Below, piece after piece: positions 10,897 to 38,988 of a stretch of DNA of 58,558 nt; positions within the stretch are counted from its first letter, which is position 1; every line of letters begins with the position of its first letter. Location: positions 1 to 58,558 of the IMG/VR virus record IMGVR_UViG_3300047550_005955; one strand, given 5' to 3'. The notes beneath the pieces are model-generated. The model saw only the letters and a program-made list of their open reading frames with translations. It searched no databases and had not been told where the DNA came from. Made by a program: the position numbers and the translations under genes. This DNA comes from a virus.

Positions 10897-11835
10897 ATGT
10901 TCGACAACCAAAAAGAAGAAATACTAAAAGACATCTTGGGAAATCCCCAGCACTCCGGTGAAGAGGTTCTTTTCTTCTGCAGAAAATGCAATCATCACAA
11001 GCCAAAACTAAGCGTAAATGTTCGTAAAAACTGTTTTAAATGTTGGGTTTGTAACTTTACCGGTACAAACTTGACGCGTCTTGTACGACGCTATGGAACT
11101 TATCGACACAAACAAGAATGGGCGAAGTATGATGATAAAGTAGACTTATCAGAAGGATCCTTTGTTGATACACTTTTTACAAAACAAGAAAGGGAACAAG
11201 TAAGCCTTTCTCTCCCAAAAGAGTTTATAACACTAACTGGAAAGCATAATCCACTATCTAATATACCGCTGCGATACTTGTATGAGCGCGGATTAAAAAG
11301 AGAAGATATATTAAAGTGGAAAATAGGTTATTGTCCTGATGGTGAATATGCTGGACGAATAGTGGTTCCAAGTTTTAATCTTGAAGGAAAAATAAATTAT
11401 TTTATTGCCCGATCATATCGGGACGATTGGATGAAATATAAAAATCCACCACTACATAAAAACTCAATTATCTTTAATGAACTATATGTTGATTGGTGCA
11501 GCGATGTTGTATTGACGGAAGGTGTGTTTGATGCTATTGTAGCAGGCAACGCAATACCGCTTCTCGGTTCAACACTTCCGGAGACAAGTAGATTGTTTCA
11601 AGAAATAGCAAAACACGATACTCCTATTTATATTGCTCTTGATCCGGACGCAGAAAAGAAAGCAAAACACTTGATTAACGACATGCTACATTACGGTATT
11701 GAACTCTATAAAATAGATGTAAGAGGCTTTCAGGATGTTGGTAGCATGAACAGGGAAGAGTTCTTAAAAAGAAAAAGTGCCTCTCTTCCTATGACGCCAG
11801 ACAATTTATTTAAATATCAATTACAGGGAATATAA
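10897..11835 (+). CDS. DnaG-type DNA primase (T4 gp61-like)
   Basis: A 312-aa protein; ATG 10897 is preferred over TTG 10894. An N-terminal zinc ribbon has Cys28-x2-Cys31 and Cys49-x2-Cys52. A TOPRIM domain follows, with the acidic motif LTEGVFDAIVAG near residue 205 and the metal-binding IALDPDAEKKA. It would make RNA primers for the lagging strand with a phage helicase not in this window. The stop overlaps the next start by one base (TAATG), so it is probably coupled to the recombination gene. The ribosome site is weak. Confidence 0.85.
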   Translation: MFDNQKEEILKDILGNPQHSGEEVLFFCRKCNHHKPKLSVNVRKNCFKCWVCNFTGTNLTRLVRRYGTYRHKQEWAKYDDKVDLSEGSFVDTLFTKQEREQVSLSLPKEFITLTGKHNPLSNIPLRYLYERGLKREDILKWKIGYCPDGEYAGRIVVPSFNLEGKINYFIARSYRDDWMKYKNPPLHKNSIIFNELYVDWCSDVVLTEGVFDAIVAGNAIPLLGSTLPETSRLFQEIAKHDTPIYIALDPDAEKKAKHLINDMLHYGIELYKIDVRGFQDVGSMNREEFLKRKSASLPMTPDNLFKYQLQGI

Positions 11836-14800
11836 TGATTAAACTCGCACATTTAGCGGACACACATATCCGCAACTTAAAATATCACGAAGAATACGAA
11901 ACTGTATTCAAGCAGATTTATAAAACTCTTGAAGAAGAAAAGCCAGATTACATAATCCACTGTGGGGATATAGCACACACAAAAACACAAATCTCACCAG
12001 AGTTTGTTGAAATGACTGCGCGGTTCTTGGAAAACTTATCCAAGATTGCTCCACTACATATTATTCTTGGAAACCATGACGGAAACTTAAAAAATAGTTC
12101 TCGTCAGGACAGTATTTCGCCTATTGTTAATGCGTTGAATAATAAAAATATTGTCCTTCATAAAGGTTCTGGAGAAAAAATAATTCAGGATGGATTAACA
12201 TTTAATGTTCTTTCTATCTTTGACGAAGAAAACTGGAAAAAGCCAACAAATCAAGACTGGATAAATATTGCTCTTTATCACGGAGCAATTGCTGGTGTAT
12301 CAACAGATATTGGCTATACGATGGAGCATTCAGATCATGACCTTTCTATTTTTTCTGGTTTCGATTATGCTCTTCTTGGAGATATTCATAAAACTAATCA
12401 GATTGTTGATACAGAAGGTCGTGTTCGCTACCCTGGATCAACTATCCAACAAAACCACGGCGAAACAGACGACAAAGGATTCCTAATTTGGGAAATTGAA
12501 GATAAAAATATTTTTAATGTCAGACACTTTGTTGTTCCTAATCCTCGCCCATTTATCACAATTAAATTGGACGAGTTCGGCAAGTTTGACGAGAGCATAC
12601 AGATAAAAGAAGGTGCGCGCGTTCGTGTAATGAGCGAGCACAATCTTGCCGTTCAGGATATTCGTAAGGCAACAGATGTTATTAAGGTAAAGTATAATCC
12701 AGAAAGCATCACGTTCTTAAACAAGGCAACAGAGCGCATCGATATTTCTGAAACATTGCAGAGAGTAAATGTAGAAGATTTGCGAAATCTTGCTACACAA
12801 GAAAAACTTATTACAGAATATCTTAAAGACTTTAATCCAACACAAGAAGTATTAACAAAGGTCTTTGAACTAAATAAAAAATATAACACTCTTGTCGAGG
12901 AAAACGAAGAAGTTTCCCGCAATGTTCGTTGGTCCCTAAAATCTCTTAAATGGGATCACTTATTTAACTATGGAAAAAATAACGTTATCAACTTTGCCGA
13001 TCTAAACGGTGTTGTTGGTATATTTGGCAAAAACTTTTCTGGCAAATCTAGCATTATTGATTCTCTGCTTTGGACAATGCAGAACTCAACAAGTAAAAAT
13101 GTTCGTAAAAATCTAAACATAATAAATCAAAATCAGCAAAGTTGTTCGGCAGAAGCAGAAATAGTTGTAAACAATAAACAATACTTGATTGAGCGCAGCG
13201 CCGAAAAATATACAAAGAAGTTAAACGGCGAAGAAACGGCAGAAGCCAAAACTGATGTTTGGTTTTCATCTTGCGAAATAGATCAACCTGAAGATTGCCG
13301 TAACTTTGAGCGCGGAAATCTAAATGGGCTCGATCGTAATGAAACGGATAAAAATATTCGAAAAGTATTTGGCACACTTGAAGATTTTCTTTTTACATCT
13401 ATGGCTTCACAACTTGGATCTCTTGATTTTATAAACGAAGGATCGACGCGTCGTAAGGAGATTCTTGGTAAGTTTATTGATCTGGATATATTTGCAAAAA
13501 AATATAAAATGGCAAATACCGATTCAACAGATCTAAAGGCTGCTTTAAAGCGCCTTGAAGGAAAAGACTACGATAAAGATATAAACGAAGCACAAGCAAA
13601 GGTCGCAGAACTAAAAGATAAATCACAAGTTCAAAGTTCTGAATGTGAACTAATAAAGGAAGAAACAAAAAAACTATCAGAGCAGATTACAGATATTGAT
13701 GTACAGATTGGTTCGCTTCCGAAAATAGAAGTCGTAGATCTTTATGAAGCAAACAATGCTTTGGAGAAGATAAAACAGGAAATCCAATCTTTTACCGAAA
13801 CAATCGGTAAGAATAATAAGTTTGTCGAGGAAAAGCAGGAGGCGCTCGATAAAGCGGCTAAACTTTTAGAAGAAATAAACATAAAAGAAGTAAGTGGACG
13901 CAAAGAAGCACTTGAAAAGGCAAACAAGGCTTTAGATAAACTTTTGCACGATGTTGTAGATCAGGAAAAAGAACTTAAAAAGGCAAATAAAGAAATAAAA
14001 ATCCTAGAAGAAGTGCCTTGCGGTGATGGGTATTTGACGACTTGCAAGTTCTTGACCAATGCAAACTCTACAAAAGAAAACATTCCAGGAACAGAACTAT
14101 CTATTAACTTGCTAAAGAAGAAAAAAGTTGAACTAGAAAAGGAAATAGAGTCCCTTAATCCAGAAGAAATAGAAAAATCTATTAGTGTTCACAGTGTCCT
14201 TCTCGAAAAACGAAGAAATATGGAGTCTCTTATTTCAGGTAAGCGGCTTGAGACAGAAAAACTAAACAATAAACTTATTCTCTCTTCAGCAAATGCCGAT
14301 AAACTAGAAAAAAATATAGAAGATTATTTCAAGAATGAACAAGTAGCGCTGAAGTTAAAAGATTTGAAGTCTAAAAAGTCTGATTTACTCAATGAAAAGC
14401 AGTCTTTGACAAAAAAACTAACAGATTGCGAAGCAAATATATTAAAAATGCATCGCGAGATAGGTTCTCTTGAACAAAAGGTGCAAACCTTGGAAGAATC
14501 AAAGAGCGAACTGTTTAAGTTGAGAGAAGAATATACCGCGATTGCTATGTTTGAAAAGGCTATGCACAGTAATGGCATTAGTTATGACATAATCCGCAAA
14601 AAACTGCCAGTCATAAACGAAGAAATAGCAAAAATACTTGCTAACGTAGTTAACTTTGAAGTATTTTTTGAGGATGATGGTAAAAAACTAGATATTCTTA
14701 TTAAGCATCCGAAGTACGATCCTCGTCCGATTGAACTTGGTAGTGGTGCCGAAAAGAGTTTGGCTGCTATGGCTATTCGTTTGGCGTTAACCAAGATCAG

Positions 14801-15011
14801 TTCATTACCGATCGGGGATATTATGATCTTAGACGAACCAGCAACCGCGCTTGATGAAGAAAATATGGAAGGTTTTATGAGAATATTAGATATGCTAAAA
14901 AGTCATTTTAAGACTATTATTTTGATTTCTCATCTTCCAGAACTAAAAGATGTTGCTGATGTTCAAATAACTATTGATAATATAGATGGATATGCTTGTG
15001 TGAAAATATAA
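11835..15011 (+). CDS. Fused SbcD-SbcC (gp47-gp46) recombination nuclease
   Basis: A 1058-aa protein joining two proteins that are separate in T4. Residues 1-~340 are an Mre11/SbcD phosphoesterase: LADTH (Asp9, His11), CGD (Asp45), GNHD (79-82). From ~375 it is an SbcC/Rad50 ATPase: Walker A GKNFSGKSS near 398, a long coiled coil with a central CGDGYLTTC turn as a likely hook, and signature ELGSGAEKS with Walker B IMILDEP near 996. It would process DNA ends for recombination-dependent replication with UvsX. The 3' end is followed by a homing endonuclease and then a second copy of its last ~61 codons. Confidence 0.9.
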   Translation: MIKLAHLADTHIRNLKYHEEYETVFKQIYKTLEEEKPDYIIHCGDIAHTKTQISPEFVEMTARFLENLSKIAPLHIILGNHDGNLKNSSRQDSISPIVNALNNKNIVLHKGSGEKIIQDGLTFNVLSIFDEENWKKPTNQDWINIALYHGAIAGVSTDIGYTMEHSDHDLSIFSGFDYALLGDIHKTNQIVDTEGRVRYPGSTIQQNHGETDDKGFLIWEIEDKNIFNVRHFVVPNPRPFITIKLDEFGKFDESIQIKEGARVRVMSEHNLAVQDIRKATDVIKVKYNPESITFLNKATERIDISETLQRVNVEDLRNLATQEKLITEYLKDFNPTQEVLTKVFELNKKYNTLVEENEEVSRNVRWSLKSLKWDHLFNYGKNNVINFADLNGVVGIFGKNFSGKSSIIDSLLWTMQNSTSKNVRKNLNIINQNQQSCSAEAEIVVNNKQYLIERSAEKYTKKLNGEETAEAKTDVWFSSCEIDQPEDCRNFERGNLNGLDRNETDKNIRKVFGTLEDFLFTSMASQLGSLDFINEGSTRRKEILGKFIDLDIFAKKYKMANTDSTDLKAALKRLEGKDYDKDINEAQAKVAELKDKSQVQSSECELIKEETKKLSEQITDIDVQIGSLPKIEVVDLYEANNALEKIKQEIQSFTETIGKNNKFVEEKQEALDKAAKLLEEINIKEVSGRKEALEKANKALDKLLHDVVDQEKELKKANKEIKILEEVPCGDGYLTTCKFLTNANSTKENIPGTELSINLLKKKKVELEKEIESLNPEEIEKSISVHSVLLEKRRNMESLISGKRLETEKLNNKLILSSANADKLEKNIEDYFKNEQVALKLKDLKSKKSDLLNEKQSLTKKLTDCEANILKMHREIGSLEQKVQTLEESKSELFKLREEYTAIAMFEKAMHSNGISYDIIRKKLPVINEEIAKILANVVNFEVFFEDDGKKLDILIKHPKYDPRPIELGSGAEKSLAAMAIRLALTKISSLPIGDIMILDEPATALDEENMEGFMRILDMLKSHFKTIILISHLPELKDVADVQITIDNIDGYACVKI

Positions 15012-15018
15012 AAATAAA

Positions 15019-15063
15019 ATATTTATTTTAGATGAGCCATCTATTTATTGTAGATGAACCTAT
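15019..15063 (+). repeat. Two short degenerate copies of the SbcC Walker B site
   Basis: Bases 15019-15040 read as IFILDEP and 15041-15063 as LFIVDEP(M), in one frame or another, and both match the DNA encoding the SbcC Walker B. The first is 18/20 identical to the sequence at 15787, on the far side of the endonuclease. They look like footprints of homing-site cleavage and repair. Confidence 0.65.
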
Positions 15064-15073
15064 GTGGGTGTCT

Positions 15074-15787
15074 ATGATGATTAGTGGAATATATAAAATA
15101 TTAAATAAAATAAATGGTAAATTTTATATTGGTAGTAGTATTAATATAAAAACCAGATGGTCTAAGCACAAAAGTTTATTAAGAAACAATAAACACGACA
15201 ACGAACATTTACAAAATGCTTGGAATATATATGGTGAAGATAGTTTTGAGTTTATAATATTGTATGAAGTTGAACAATGTCTTTTGTTGCAAGAAGAAGA
15301 AAATATTATAAAAAATTTAAATTGTTGCGATAGACAGATTGGATATAACAAAACAGAAAATACTCTTTGTCCGATGAGAGGAAAGAAGTTGAGCGAAGAA
15401 ACGATCTGCAAACTAAGAGCCGCATCTACAGGGAAAAAACATACCGAAGAAACAAAACACAAGATTAGTCAATCAAATAAAAACAAAGTTGTTTCAGAAG
15501 AAACTAGAAGAAAAATGAGTGATGCTAAAAAAGGAAAAGAAATCTTACACAAAGAAAAACTTGATAATTCAAAAAAAACAAAACAATTTAGAGAAAAAAT
15601 AAGTAAATTTGCAAAAACAAGAACTGGTATTAAAAATCCTAACTCTAGATTAAACTTGCAACAGATAGAGACTATAATGCAAGACTTAGAACAAAATATT
15701 TTAAAAATTCAAGAAATAGCAAACAAATTTAATGTTTCTCGCTCAACAATAAAAAGAATTAAATATAAACAAACTTACGTAGATTGA
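15074..15787 (+). CDS. GIY-YIG homing endonuclease with NUMOD3 repeats
   Basis: A 237-aa free-standing endonuclease. SGIYKI and FYIGSS near the start are the GIY-YIG motifs; R and K follow in KTRWSKHKS, and the catalytic Glu is probably in the LLLQEEEN segment. Two or three NUMOD3 repeats (GKKLSEETICKL, GKKHTEETKHKI) and a C-terminal helix-turn-helix (IANKFNVSRSTIKRI) would bind DNA. The frame is open from ATG 15032, but the extra residues are translated Walker B remnants, so ATG 15074 or 15077 is preferred. The gene is AT-rich compared with SbcC, as expected of a mobile gene. It likely targets phages lacking it at the SbcC Walker B region. Confidence 0.85.
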   Translation: MMISGIYKILNKINGKFYIGSSINIKTRWSKHKSLLRNNKHDNEHLQNAWNIYGEDSFEFIILYEVEQCLLLQEEENIIKNLNCCDRQIGYNKTENTLCPMRGKKLSEETICKLRAASTGKKHTEETKHKISQSNKNKVVSEETRRKMSDAKKGKEILHKEKLDNSKKTKQFREKISKFAKTRTGIKNPNSRLNLQQIETIMQDLEQNILKIQEIANKFNVSRSTIKRIKYKQTYVD

Positions 15788-15978
15788 TATTTATATTAGA
15801 CGAGCCTGCAACTGCTCTTGACGAAGAAAATATGGAAGGATTTGTAAGAATCATTGATATGCTAAAGACACAGTTCAAGACAATCATACTTATTTCTCAC
15901 CTAGCAGAGTTAAAAGATGTTGCTGACGTACAAATAACCATTGATAACGTTGATGGTTATGCACATGTGGAGGCATAA
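15784..15978 (+). pseudogene. Displaced 3' end of the SbcC gene (second copy)
   Basis: Codes for 61 residues from ILDEPATALDEENM to the stop, differing at 9 positions from the C-terminus of the intact SbcC upstream. Many synonymous sites also differ, so this is not a fresh duplication. It lacks any start other than TTG 15784, which overlaps the endonuclease TGA. Its stop abuts the next gene without a gap, as expected for the native gene end. The most likely reading is that it is the original SbcC tail, cut off when the endonuclease arrived with a replacement tail. A small separately translated peptide cannot be excluded. Confidence 0.8.
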
Positions 15979-16215
15979 ATGAATATGGGGAAGATAAAAC
16001 AACAACTATTAGACCGATTGGTCGGAAAAGTGGTCAGCAGAAAACTTCTTGTATGGATAGTTGCTACTGTTGGTGTGCCGCTCCATTTTATTGACGGTGA
16101 TCAGTGGATGCAGATTAGCATTATTTATATCGGATCACAGGCTGTTATAACGGGCATTACTGAATATGTTAGAGCCAGCAAAGGTTTACCGTCACGGGCT
16201 TCCGAAGAGGGATGA
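15979..16215 (+). CDS. Small membrane protein, possible holin
   Basis: A 78-aa protein starting one base after the preceding stop. Two hydrophobic segments (around LLVWIVATVGVPL and ISIIYIGSQAVIT) are separated by a short charged loop, with a basic N-terminus, which fits a class II holin. It is followed by other small membrane genes, which supports a lysis role, but no endolysin is recognised nearby. GAGG lies within the upstream coding end. Confidence 0.5.
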   Translation: MNMGKIKQQLLDRLVGKVVSRKLLVWIVATVGVPLHFIDGDQWMQISIIYIGSQAVITGITEYVRASKGLPSRASEEG

Positions 16216-16313
16216 ATATTCAAGCAGATATTATAGACGTAATCTTAACTTCACTAGGAATAGTGTTTATAATCTCTTATGCATTGGAGATGTTATATGG
16301 TGAAAAGAAATAA
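16212..16313 (+). CDS. 33-aa single-span membrane peptide
   Basis: ATG 16212 overlaps the previous TGA (ATGA) with GAGG just upstream. The product has an acidic start, one hydrophobic helix (VILTSLGIVFIISYALEML) and a basic end (GEKK). It overlaps the start of the next gene by 17 bases in another frame. Tight coupling on both sides and the clean membrane helix support a real gene. It may modulate the neighbouring holin-like protein; this is a guess. Confidence 0.55.
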   Translation: MNIQADIIDVILTSLGIVFIISYALEMLYGEKK

Positions 16314-37929: not shown

Positions 37930-38721
37930 ATGAGTGATGATAACAAGTGGAAGCAACCAGAACAACCACCGCCACCACTTTTTCTTGGTAAAAAAGAAAG
38001 AGATCTAACCAAACAAATCAATGATGAAATCATTGAAAGAGTTATTGGTCAAACTATTATATATTTTCCAATAAATGTAAAAAATACTCATTTTCATCCA
38101 CTGTATGGTGAAGCAATAGAAAAAGTTTTTCTTCGTCCAGTAGTTATAAAGGCTCTTGTAAAACTTGATTCAGACGAAACATCAACAGAGATATATGGTC
38201 TAGATAAAGATTCTCAGTTGACAATAAACTTCCACAAAAGAAGACTTACAGAAGATCAGGATCTTTTTGTAAGAGAAGGTGATGTTGTTTTTTATGGTAC
38301 AAAGTTTTATGAAATAATGAAACTTGCAGAACCACGTCCATTATTTGGACAAATAGAGCACAAGTTTGAGATACAAGCAACCTGCAAGCGTGCACGACAA
38401 GGTTTCTTTGATGAGCCGATTGCAATATTGCAAATAAGAGAAAAATATAGACAAACCCAAAGAAGCATATATGACATTATTGCAGAAACAGATGTAGACG
38501 GCGCTTGTGACGGAAAAATACAACTCATATCTGGCAAAAGAACAAGTTCTCAAAGAAGTCAGTTTTTGGATTATGTATTAAATGCAGACAAGTATGATGG
38601 TTGTGTTGTTTATTTAACAGAAATAGATGAAGATGAGACATATGGTGATTTTGATCAAATAGATAAGTTTTATTTCAACGAAAGCGGTGTTTGGTACCCA
38701 AGTCAGTTTTTCGCGATATAG
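37930..38721 (+). CDS. 14: Neck protein (gp14-like) with extra C-terminal domain
   Basis: A 263-aa protein. LFLGKKERDLTKQINDE, ERVIGQTIIYFPI and THFHPLYGEAIEK mark the gp14 neck family. The last ~65 residues (ISGKRTSSQRSQFLDYV to FNESGVWYPSQFF) form an extra domain that matches the whole small protein encoded next, so one arose from the other. Works with gp13 to close the head. Confidence 0.75.
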   Translation: MSDDNKWKQPEQPPPPLFLGKKERDLTKQINDEIIERVIGQTIIYFPINVKNTHFHPLYGEAIEKVFLRPVVIKALVKLDSDETSTEIYGLDKDSQLTINFHKRRLTEDQDLFVREGDVVFYGTKFYEIMKLAEPRPLFGQIEHKFEIQATCKRARQGFFDEPIAILQIREKYRQTQRSIYDIIAETDVDGACDGKIQLISGKRTSSQRSQFLDYVLNADKYDGCVVYLTEIDEDETYGDFDQIDKFYFNESGVWYPSQFFAI

Positions 38722-38731
38722 GAAAACAAAT

Positions 38732-38977
38732 ATGAAATCTAAAACATTTGACAAGTTTAAGCACATATCTGGCAAAAGAGACTGGAAAAAACGCGAACTA
38801 TTTCTGGATATGGTTAATAATCCGGAAAAATATAAAGGTTTTATTGTGTTTTTAAAAGAAGTAGATGAAGATGAACTATATGAGCCATTTGTTTCTGTAA
38901 AAAAATATTATTTCAACGAAGGCGGCGTATGGCAAACCGGAGATATGTTCGGTGCACCAACATTTTTTGAAGAATAG
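38732..38977 (+). CDS. Stand-alone copy of the gp14-like C-terminal domain
   Basis: An 81-aa protein starting at ATG 38732. HISGKRDWKKRELFLDM, the VDEDELY turn and YYFNEGGVWQTGDMF align end to end with the C-terminal domain of the preceding protein. Probably a neck component or adaptor. Function unknown. Confidence 0.6.
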   Translation: MKSKTFDKFKHISGKRDWKKRELFLDMVNNPEKYKGFIVFLKEVDEDELYEPFVSVKKYYFNEGGVWQTGDMFGAPTFFEE

Positions 38978-38988
38978 GCTATAATAAA

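Follow-up and report, generated by a model that had tools for sequence, protein, structure and literature searches.

A GIY-YIG endonuclease in a phage SbcC gene appears to travel with a substitute end for the gene it invades

The window analysed here is an IMG/VR virus record of 58,558 bases (IMGVR_UViG_3300047550_005955), taken at its full length. In it, a GIY-YIG endonuclease gene sits between two copies of the 3′ end of SbcC. We propose, with a probability of roughly 0.87, that positions 14820–15787 form a mobile element consisting of a substitute SbcC 3′ end (tail 1) and a free-standing GIY-YIG homing endonuclease. The second copy (tail 2) would be the displaced end of the host gene. What carries this reading can be seen directly in the DNA: the anatomy of the locus, its recurrence in a second phage, chimeric tails, a sharp insertion point, base composition and the loss of a candidate recognition site from tail 1.

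SbcD and SbcC are fused in the window into one open reading frame (ORF; 11835–15011, 1058 aa) that matches Pfam Metallophos and SMC_N and the SbcD-like and SbcC-like PHROGs. The closest annotated phage for this fused gene is Microcystis phage Mel-JY01, at 28% identity. All features of the locus lie on the plus strand. The native body, defined by the Pfam and PHROG matches and 31 relatives, runs up to the Walker B codons (11835–14819), and tail 1 continues from Walker B to the stop (14820–15011). A leader with predicted RNA hairpins (15009–15090) leads into the endonuclease gene, whose longest ORF is 15032–15787 and whose likely start, by homology to the related contig L004, is 15077 (15077–15787, 236 aa). 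Tail 2 follows at 15787–15978. The next gene, of unknown function (15979–16215), has its ATG at 15979, abutting the tail 2 stop. An earlier note on this DNA had described just this layout (an intact SbcC end, then a GIY-YIG endonuclease, then another in-frame tail that reaches to the next gene), and it holds in each part. Where the note counted 52 of 61 residues the same with many synonymous differences, we measure 85.5% identity over 62 residues, far above chance (blastp E 9e-32 within the window), with 77% nucleotide identity and 50% at third positions. SbcC is complete and aligns end to end with relatives that lack the endonuclease (empty relatives); it is not left as two coding pieces. An assembly error is unlikely, because one contig (L002) is identical to the window and a diverged phage (L004) has the same architecture.

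The enzyme matches PF01541 at 1.6e-9 and a homing endonuclease PHROG at 7e-33, and its DNA-binding part is present (NUMOD3, 3.6e-10; HTH_7, 3.2e-5). Y6, Y17, R27 and E74, which supply the GIY-YIG catalytic Tyr/Arg/Glu set, are invariant across the window, L004 and a further contig, L003. GIY-YIG endonucleases are often intron-borne, and several relatives of this one in cultured phages sit between pieces of split genes. The gene might accordingly be pictured inside a group I intron, with the duplicated tail as an alternative 3′ exon. However, an Rfam intron search of 14500–16300 found no group I intron, with no intron family near the thresholds. The stretch before the endonuclease is short, and tail 1 has its own stop, which completes the ORF without splicing. 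With no self-splicing core found and the ORF complete unspliced, the intron was rejected, and we hold it to be extremely improbable.

A search of viral contigs yielded 31 relatives and a tail-centred search four further contigs. Megablast of phage records with the window gave no match, so no cultured relative was of help. L004, whose SbcC is 69% identical to that of the window, shows the same arrangement: SbcC ending in tail 1, then the endonuclease (67% identical), tail 2 and the next gene. Twelve near-lineage loci (L003, L005, L007, L008, L013, L027, L030, L031, L032, L120/L121, L126 and L127) show just one tail with no endonuclease beside it, and in most near empty relatives the next gene directly follows that tail. 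Apart from a 966-nt insert at Walker B, L004 is collinear with empty L030, giving an occupied and an empty allele at one homologous site. The insert starts and ends at the same codons in both lineages (window and L004). Between these two, third-position identity is 65% in the endonuclease and 49% in the SbcC body.

The two tails of L004 have different affinities. Tail 2 differs from L030 at 7 of 186 nt and tail 1 at 37 of 186 (Fisher 1e-6), so that tail 2 is 96% identical to L030 and 81% to its own tail 1. Sites that distinguish L030 from L013 favour L030 by 37:5 in tail 2, whereas over the initial 90 nt of tail 1 they favour L013 by 15:1. The lineage switch lies within about 10–30 nt upstream of Walker B. 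A tree of the tails places the two tail 2 copies in the empty FILDEPATAL group and the two tail 1 copies in the MILDEPATSL group (88/87). GC content at third positions (GC3) in the window is 0.297 for the body and 0.290 for tail 2, against 0.177 for tail 1 and 0.191 for the endonuclease. The tail 1 value lies under that of every 186-nt segment of the body, and L004 leans in the same direction, less strongly. Because of the differences from L030, the informative sites, the tail tree and GC3, tail 1 is assigned to the endonuclease and tail 2 to the host gene; the data support the view that tail 1 is element cargo and tail 2 the displaced native end. The earlier note had named as support a downstream copy that matches empty relatives and an upstream tail that follows another lineage with a break near Walker B, and had proposed comparing the composition of the tails. 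The first two appeared in L004, and a difference in composition appeared in the window, where tail 2 resembles the body and tail 1 is close to the endonuclease. Neither of the contrary patterns it named was seen, namely tails that are recent copies of each other and a second tail in a relative without the endonuclease.

These comparisons bear on an ordinary duplication of the SbcC end in one genome, in which the endonuclease landed between the copies and the copies drifted apart. Two open and similar tails would suit such a history. The greater closeness of L004 tail 2 to L030 than to its own tail 1 does not, nor does the differing composition of the window tails, and the arrangement recurs at other genes with related endonucleases (below). 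A recent internal duplication is contradicted by the chimeric pattern in L004 and was rejected, and we judge the duplication account highly improbable.

Alternatively, tail 2 might yield a small protein of its own with a distinct function, as its frame is open in both phages and a TTG in the window overlaps the endonuclease stop. L004, however, lacks such a start, and among the near-lineage relatives without the endonuclease no separate second tail ORF was seen. Tail 2 also holds the GGAGG that precedes the next gene (15969–15973 in the window), a motif that tail 1 lacks in both phages. Recent displacement, the homology needed for homing and this ribosome-binding site can explain why tail 2 is conserved, and a protein role for it is about as improbable as the duplication.

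A 19-bp site within the Walker B codons (TATTTATATTAGATGAACC, encoding IFILDEP) begins right at the endonuclease stop. Its occurrence at the right junction of the window (TATTTATATTAGAYGARCC, 15788–15806) is the proposed recognition half-site. Four empty relatives (L003, L008, L030 and L031) and L004 tail 2 have the site without a mismatch. Tail 2 of the window departs from it at 2 positions and the tail 1 copies of both phages at 5–6 (5 in the window). With up to 3 mismatches allowed, the window has 3 occurrences (expected 0.06), and L004 likewise has 3, one at the right junction and two before the endonuclease start. In the window the two leader copies (15020–15038 and 15042–15060, 2 mismatches each) lie 22 bp apart, also before the endonuclease start. 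Leader copies are conserved in L004, and their identity to the site is 16–17 of 19. In the collection, only L002 and L004 have such a pair of copies, and both carry this endonuclease. The leaders fold better than shuffled sequences (z −3.5 in the window, −3.2 in L004), and the hairpin predicted in L004 pairs the ribosome-binding site. At the sequence level, both phages have what the I-TevI type of regulation involves, a site-like operator before the endonuclease gene, here in two copies. The two degenerate copies may be operators for self-repression of the endonuclease.

From these patterns we infer binding, cleavage, homing and repression as follows. In an empty phage, binding of the endonuclease to the Walker B codons (TATTTATATTAGATGAACC) would lead to a cut close to these codons or upstream. 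The broken SbcC would then be repaired from an element-bearing genome, with the SbcC body pairing on the left and the donor's displaced tail 2 on the right. This repair would bring in tail 1 and the endonuclease, and tail 1 would complete the recipient SbcC in frame. The recipient's own end would stay downstream as tail 2, still giving the next gene its ribosome-binding site. Since tail 1 encodes nearly the same protein with the recognition sequence lost, the occupied allele would be protected, and binding of the endonuclease to the leader copies might repress its own gene.

Chance recombination between phages could also have left a partial second gene end, with the endonuclease as a bystander or at the recombination boundary; passages of PMC10448857 do report endonuclease genes at boundaries of phage genetic exchange. 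Such events would have had to start and end at the same codons in two lineages, with the recurring site both at the junction and in the leader. The architecture is also shared by primase genes and possibly by two other genes. Chance recombination is, in our judgement, very unlikely.

Several points weigh against the proposed SbcC element. It is carried by only two phage lineages. The window is without a close empty relative (the best match to its tail 2 is 85.5% at the nucleotide level), so the sharpest evidence comes from L004. The tail tree, built on 186 nt, has moderate support, dS values approach saturation, and the low GC of the endonuclease raises chance identity. Finally, the contig that comes nearest to L004 tail 1, L013, has no endonuclease. 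Its single tail is tail 1-like in the first part and native-type at the end. If the two tails recombined, the endonuclease would be lost and a gene of this kind left behind; L013 could equally be a donor lineage.

Scanning 80 endonuclease loci for peptides duplicated on both sides turned up mirror cases, in which GIY-YIG genes come with replacement 5′ ends in primase genes and the native 5′ end is left upstream. L003 (1–2100) has a truncated native primase start, a GIY-YIG gene and then a complete primase with a divergent start. An empty primase allele from the same metagenome (3300023184; L204, 2501–2746) matches L003 at every position of the 102 nt to the left and the 120 nt to the right of the change, which is confined to the stretch between them. 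A second primase 5′-end group is formed by L209, L211, L213 and L236 (the same contigs as L037, L042, L046 and L038). Their displaced starts are close to empty L216 (98% identical for L209, 96% for L211), and the working starts form a separate group. L210, which has no endonuclease, is identical to the substitute start of L209 over its first 138 nt. Beyond these it differs from L209 at 186 of 795 nt and is closely identical to empty L214. The substitute end of L210 may have moved alone or remained after endonuclease loss, or L210 may represent the donor lineage. Operator-like site copies were looked for in the primase elements and not found. In L209, several small genes (740–1880), including repeated MKLTK-type ORFs, separate the endonuclease from the displaced primase start. 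Elements of the L209 type may carry cargo.

Two further loci are possible cases. L083 (4218–5680) has a late sigma factor gene, a GIY-YIG gene and then a repeat of the last 26 codons of the former, identical in protein with synonymous changes, and would be a 3′-end case. In L094 (2000–3907), a short 5′ fragment precedes a GIY-YIG gene, which is followed by a complete gene for a zinc-ribbon protein whose start resembles the fragment; this would be a 5′-end case. In cultured phages, 14 endonuclease loci showed no convincing gene-end duplication; these genes are located in split genes or between genes. We think it probable that GIY-YIG homing elements without introns make up a general class in phages, one that inserts into conserved motifs of essential genes (the SbcC Walker B, the primase zinc finger, perhaps the late sigma factor and the zinc-ribbon protein). 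Members of this class would bring a recoded, site-free substitute 3′ or 5′ end and leave the native end displaced, and the substitute end could outlast the endonuclease. Elsewhere in the window (37930–38980), the C-terminal 77 residues of a 263-aa gene recur directly downstream at 44% identity, with no endonuclease; this repeat may be an old displaced end or simply a duplication.

The T4 seg genes are likewise free-standing GIY-YIG genes beside a conserved gene. The seg endonucleases make their cuts in neighbouring DNA and convert the flanking sequence, leaving no displaced gene end. A closer parallel is found in the gene-hybrid mobile ORFs of fungal mitochondria, described for Allomyces atp6 (Paquin 1994, as cited in PMC3630166) and for Glomus atp6, atp9, cox2 and nad3 (PMC3630166). 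The earlier note had pointed out that some of these homing genes carry the host gene's 3′ end, and this is borne out there. Shared with them are insertion without an intron, a foreign 3′ end joined to the host gene in frame, and a displaced native 3′ end past the endonuclease that matches close empty relatives, as L004 tail 2 matches L030. The Glomus atp9 case even has a GIY-YIG enzyme, as here (PMC3630166). The phage elements differ in host and gene, in their 5′-end mirror versions and in the operator-like site copies at SbcC; the likeness is one of working mode. The suggestion that the same strategy operates here without an intron finds support in the L004–L030 comparison, GC3 and the Rfam result.

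I-TevI, encoded in an intron of T4 td, has an operator identical to its homing site at 15 of 20 positions and a hairpin over the ribosome-binding site, according to passages of PMC2988022. The SbcC endonuclease shares with it the catalytic domain, a DNA-binding end, the upstream site-like sequence and the leader hairpin. I-TevI, however, lies in a self-splicing intron, whereas none was found at SbcC, where the substitute end would save the host gene. The same passages describe mobE in Aeh1 nrdA and mobA in the T4 topoisomerase gene, likewise intron-less insertions in critical parts of essential phage genes. They leave two gene pieces that must assemble, unlike the one complete gene with a spare end seen here. 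Those parts of this T4 review describe split genes and no substitute ends, and passages of PMC10448857 on phage nucleases at exchange boundaries contain no substitute-end case. The earlier note knew of no phage precedent, and we found none in the open-access papers searched, subscription papers being outside the scope of the search. As far as could be found, the strategy has so far been known only from fungal mitochondria.

If this reading is right, a selfish endonuclease with neither intron nor intein can live in an essential gene by bringing the missing piece. The strategy of the fungal mitochondrial elements would extend to phages, where it would also exist in mirror form at the 5′ ends of genes. 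Homing can be tested directly on the occupied and empty alleles, of which one pair comes from a single metagenome. SbcC itself is a DNA-end-processing gene of the type on which phage recombination relies, and elements of this kind offer a possible route to chimeric essential phage genes at their most conserved motifs.
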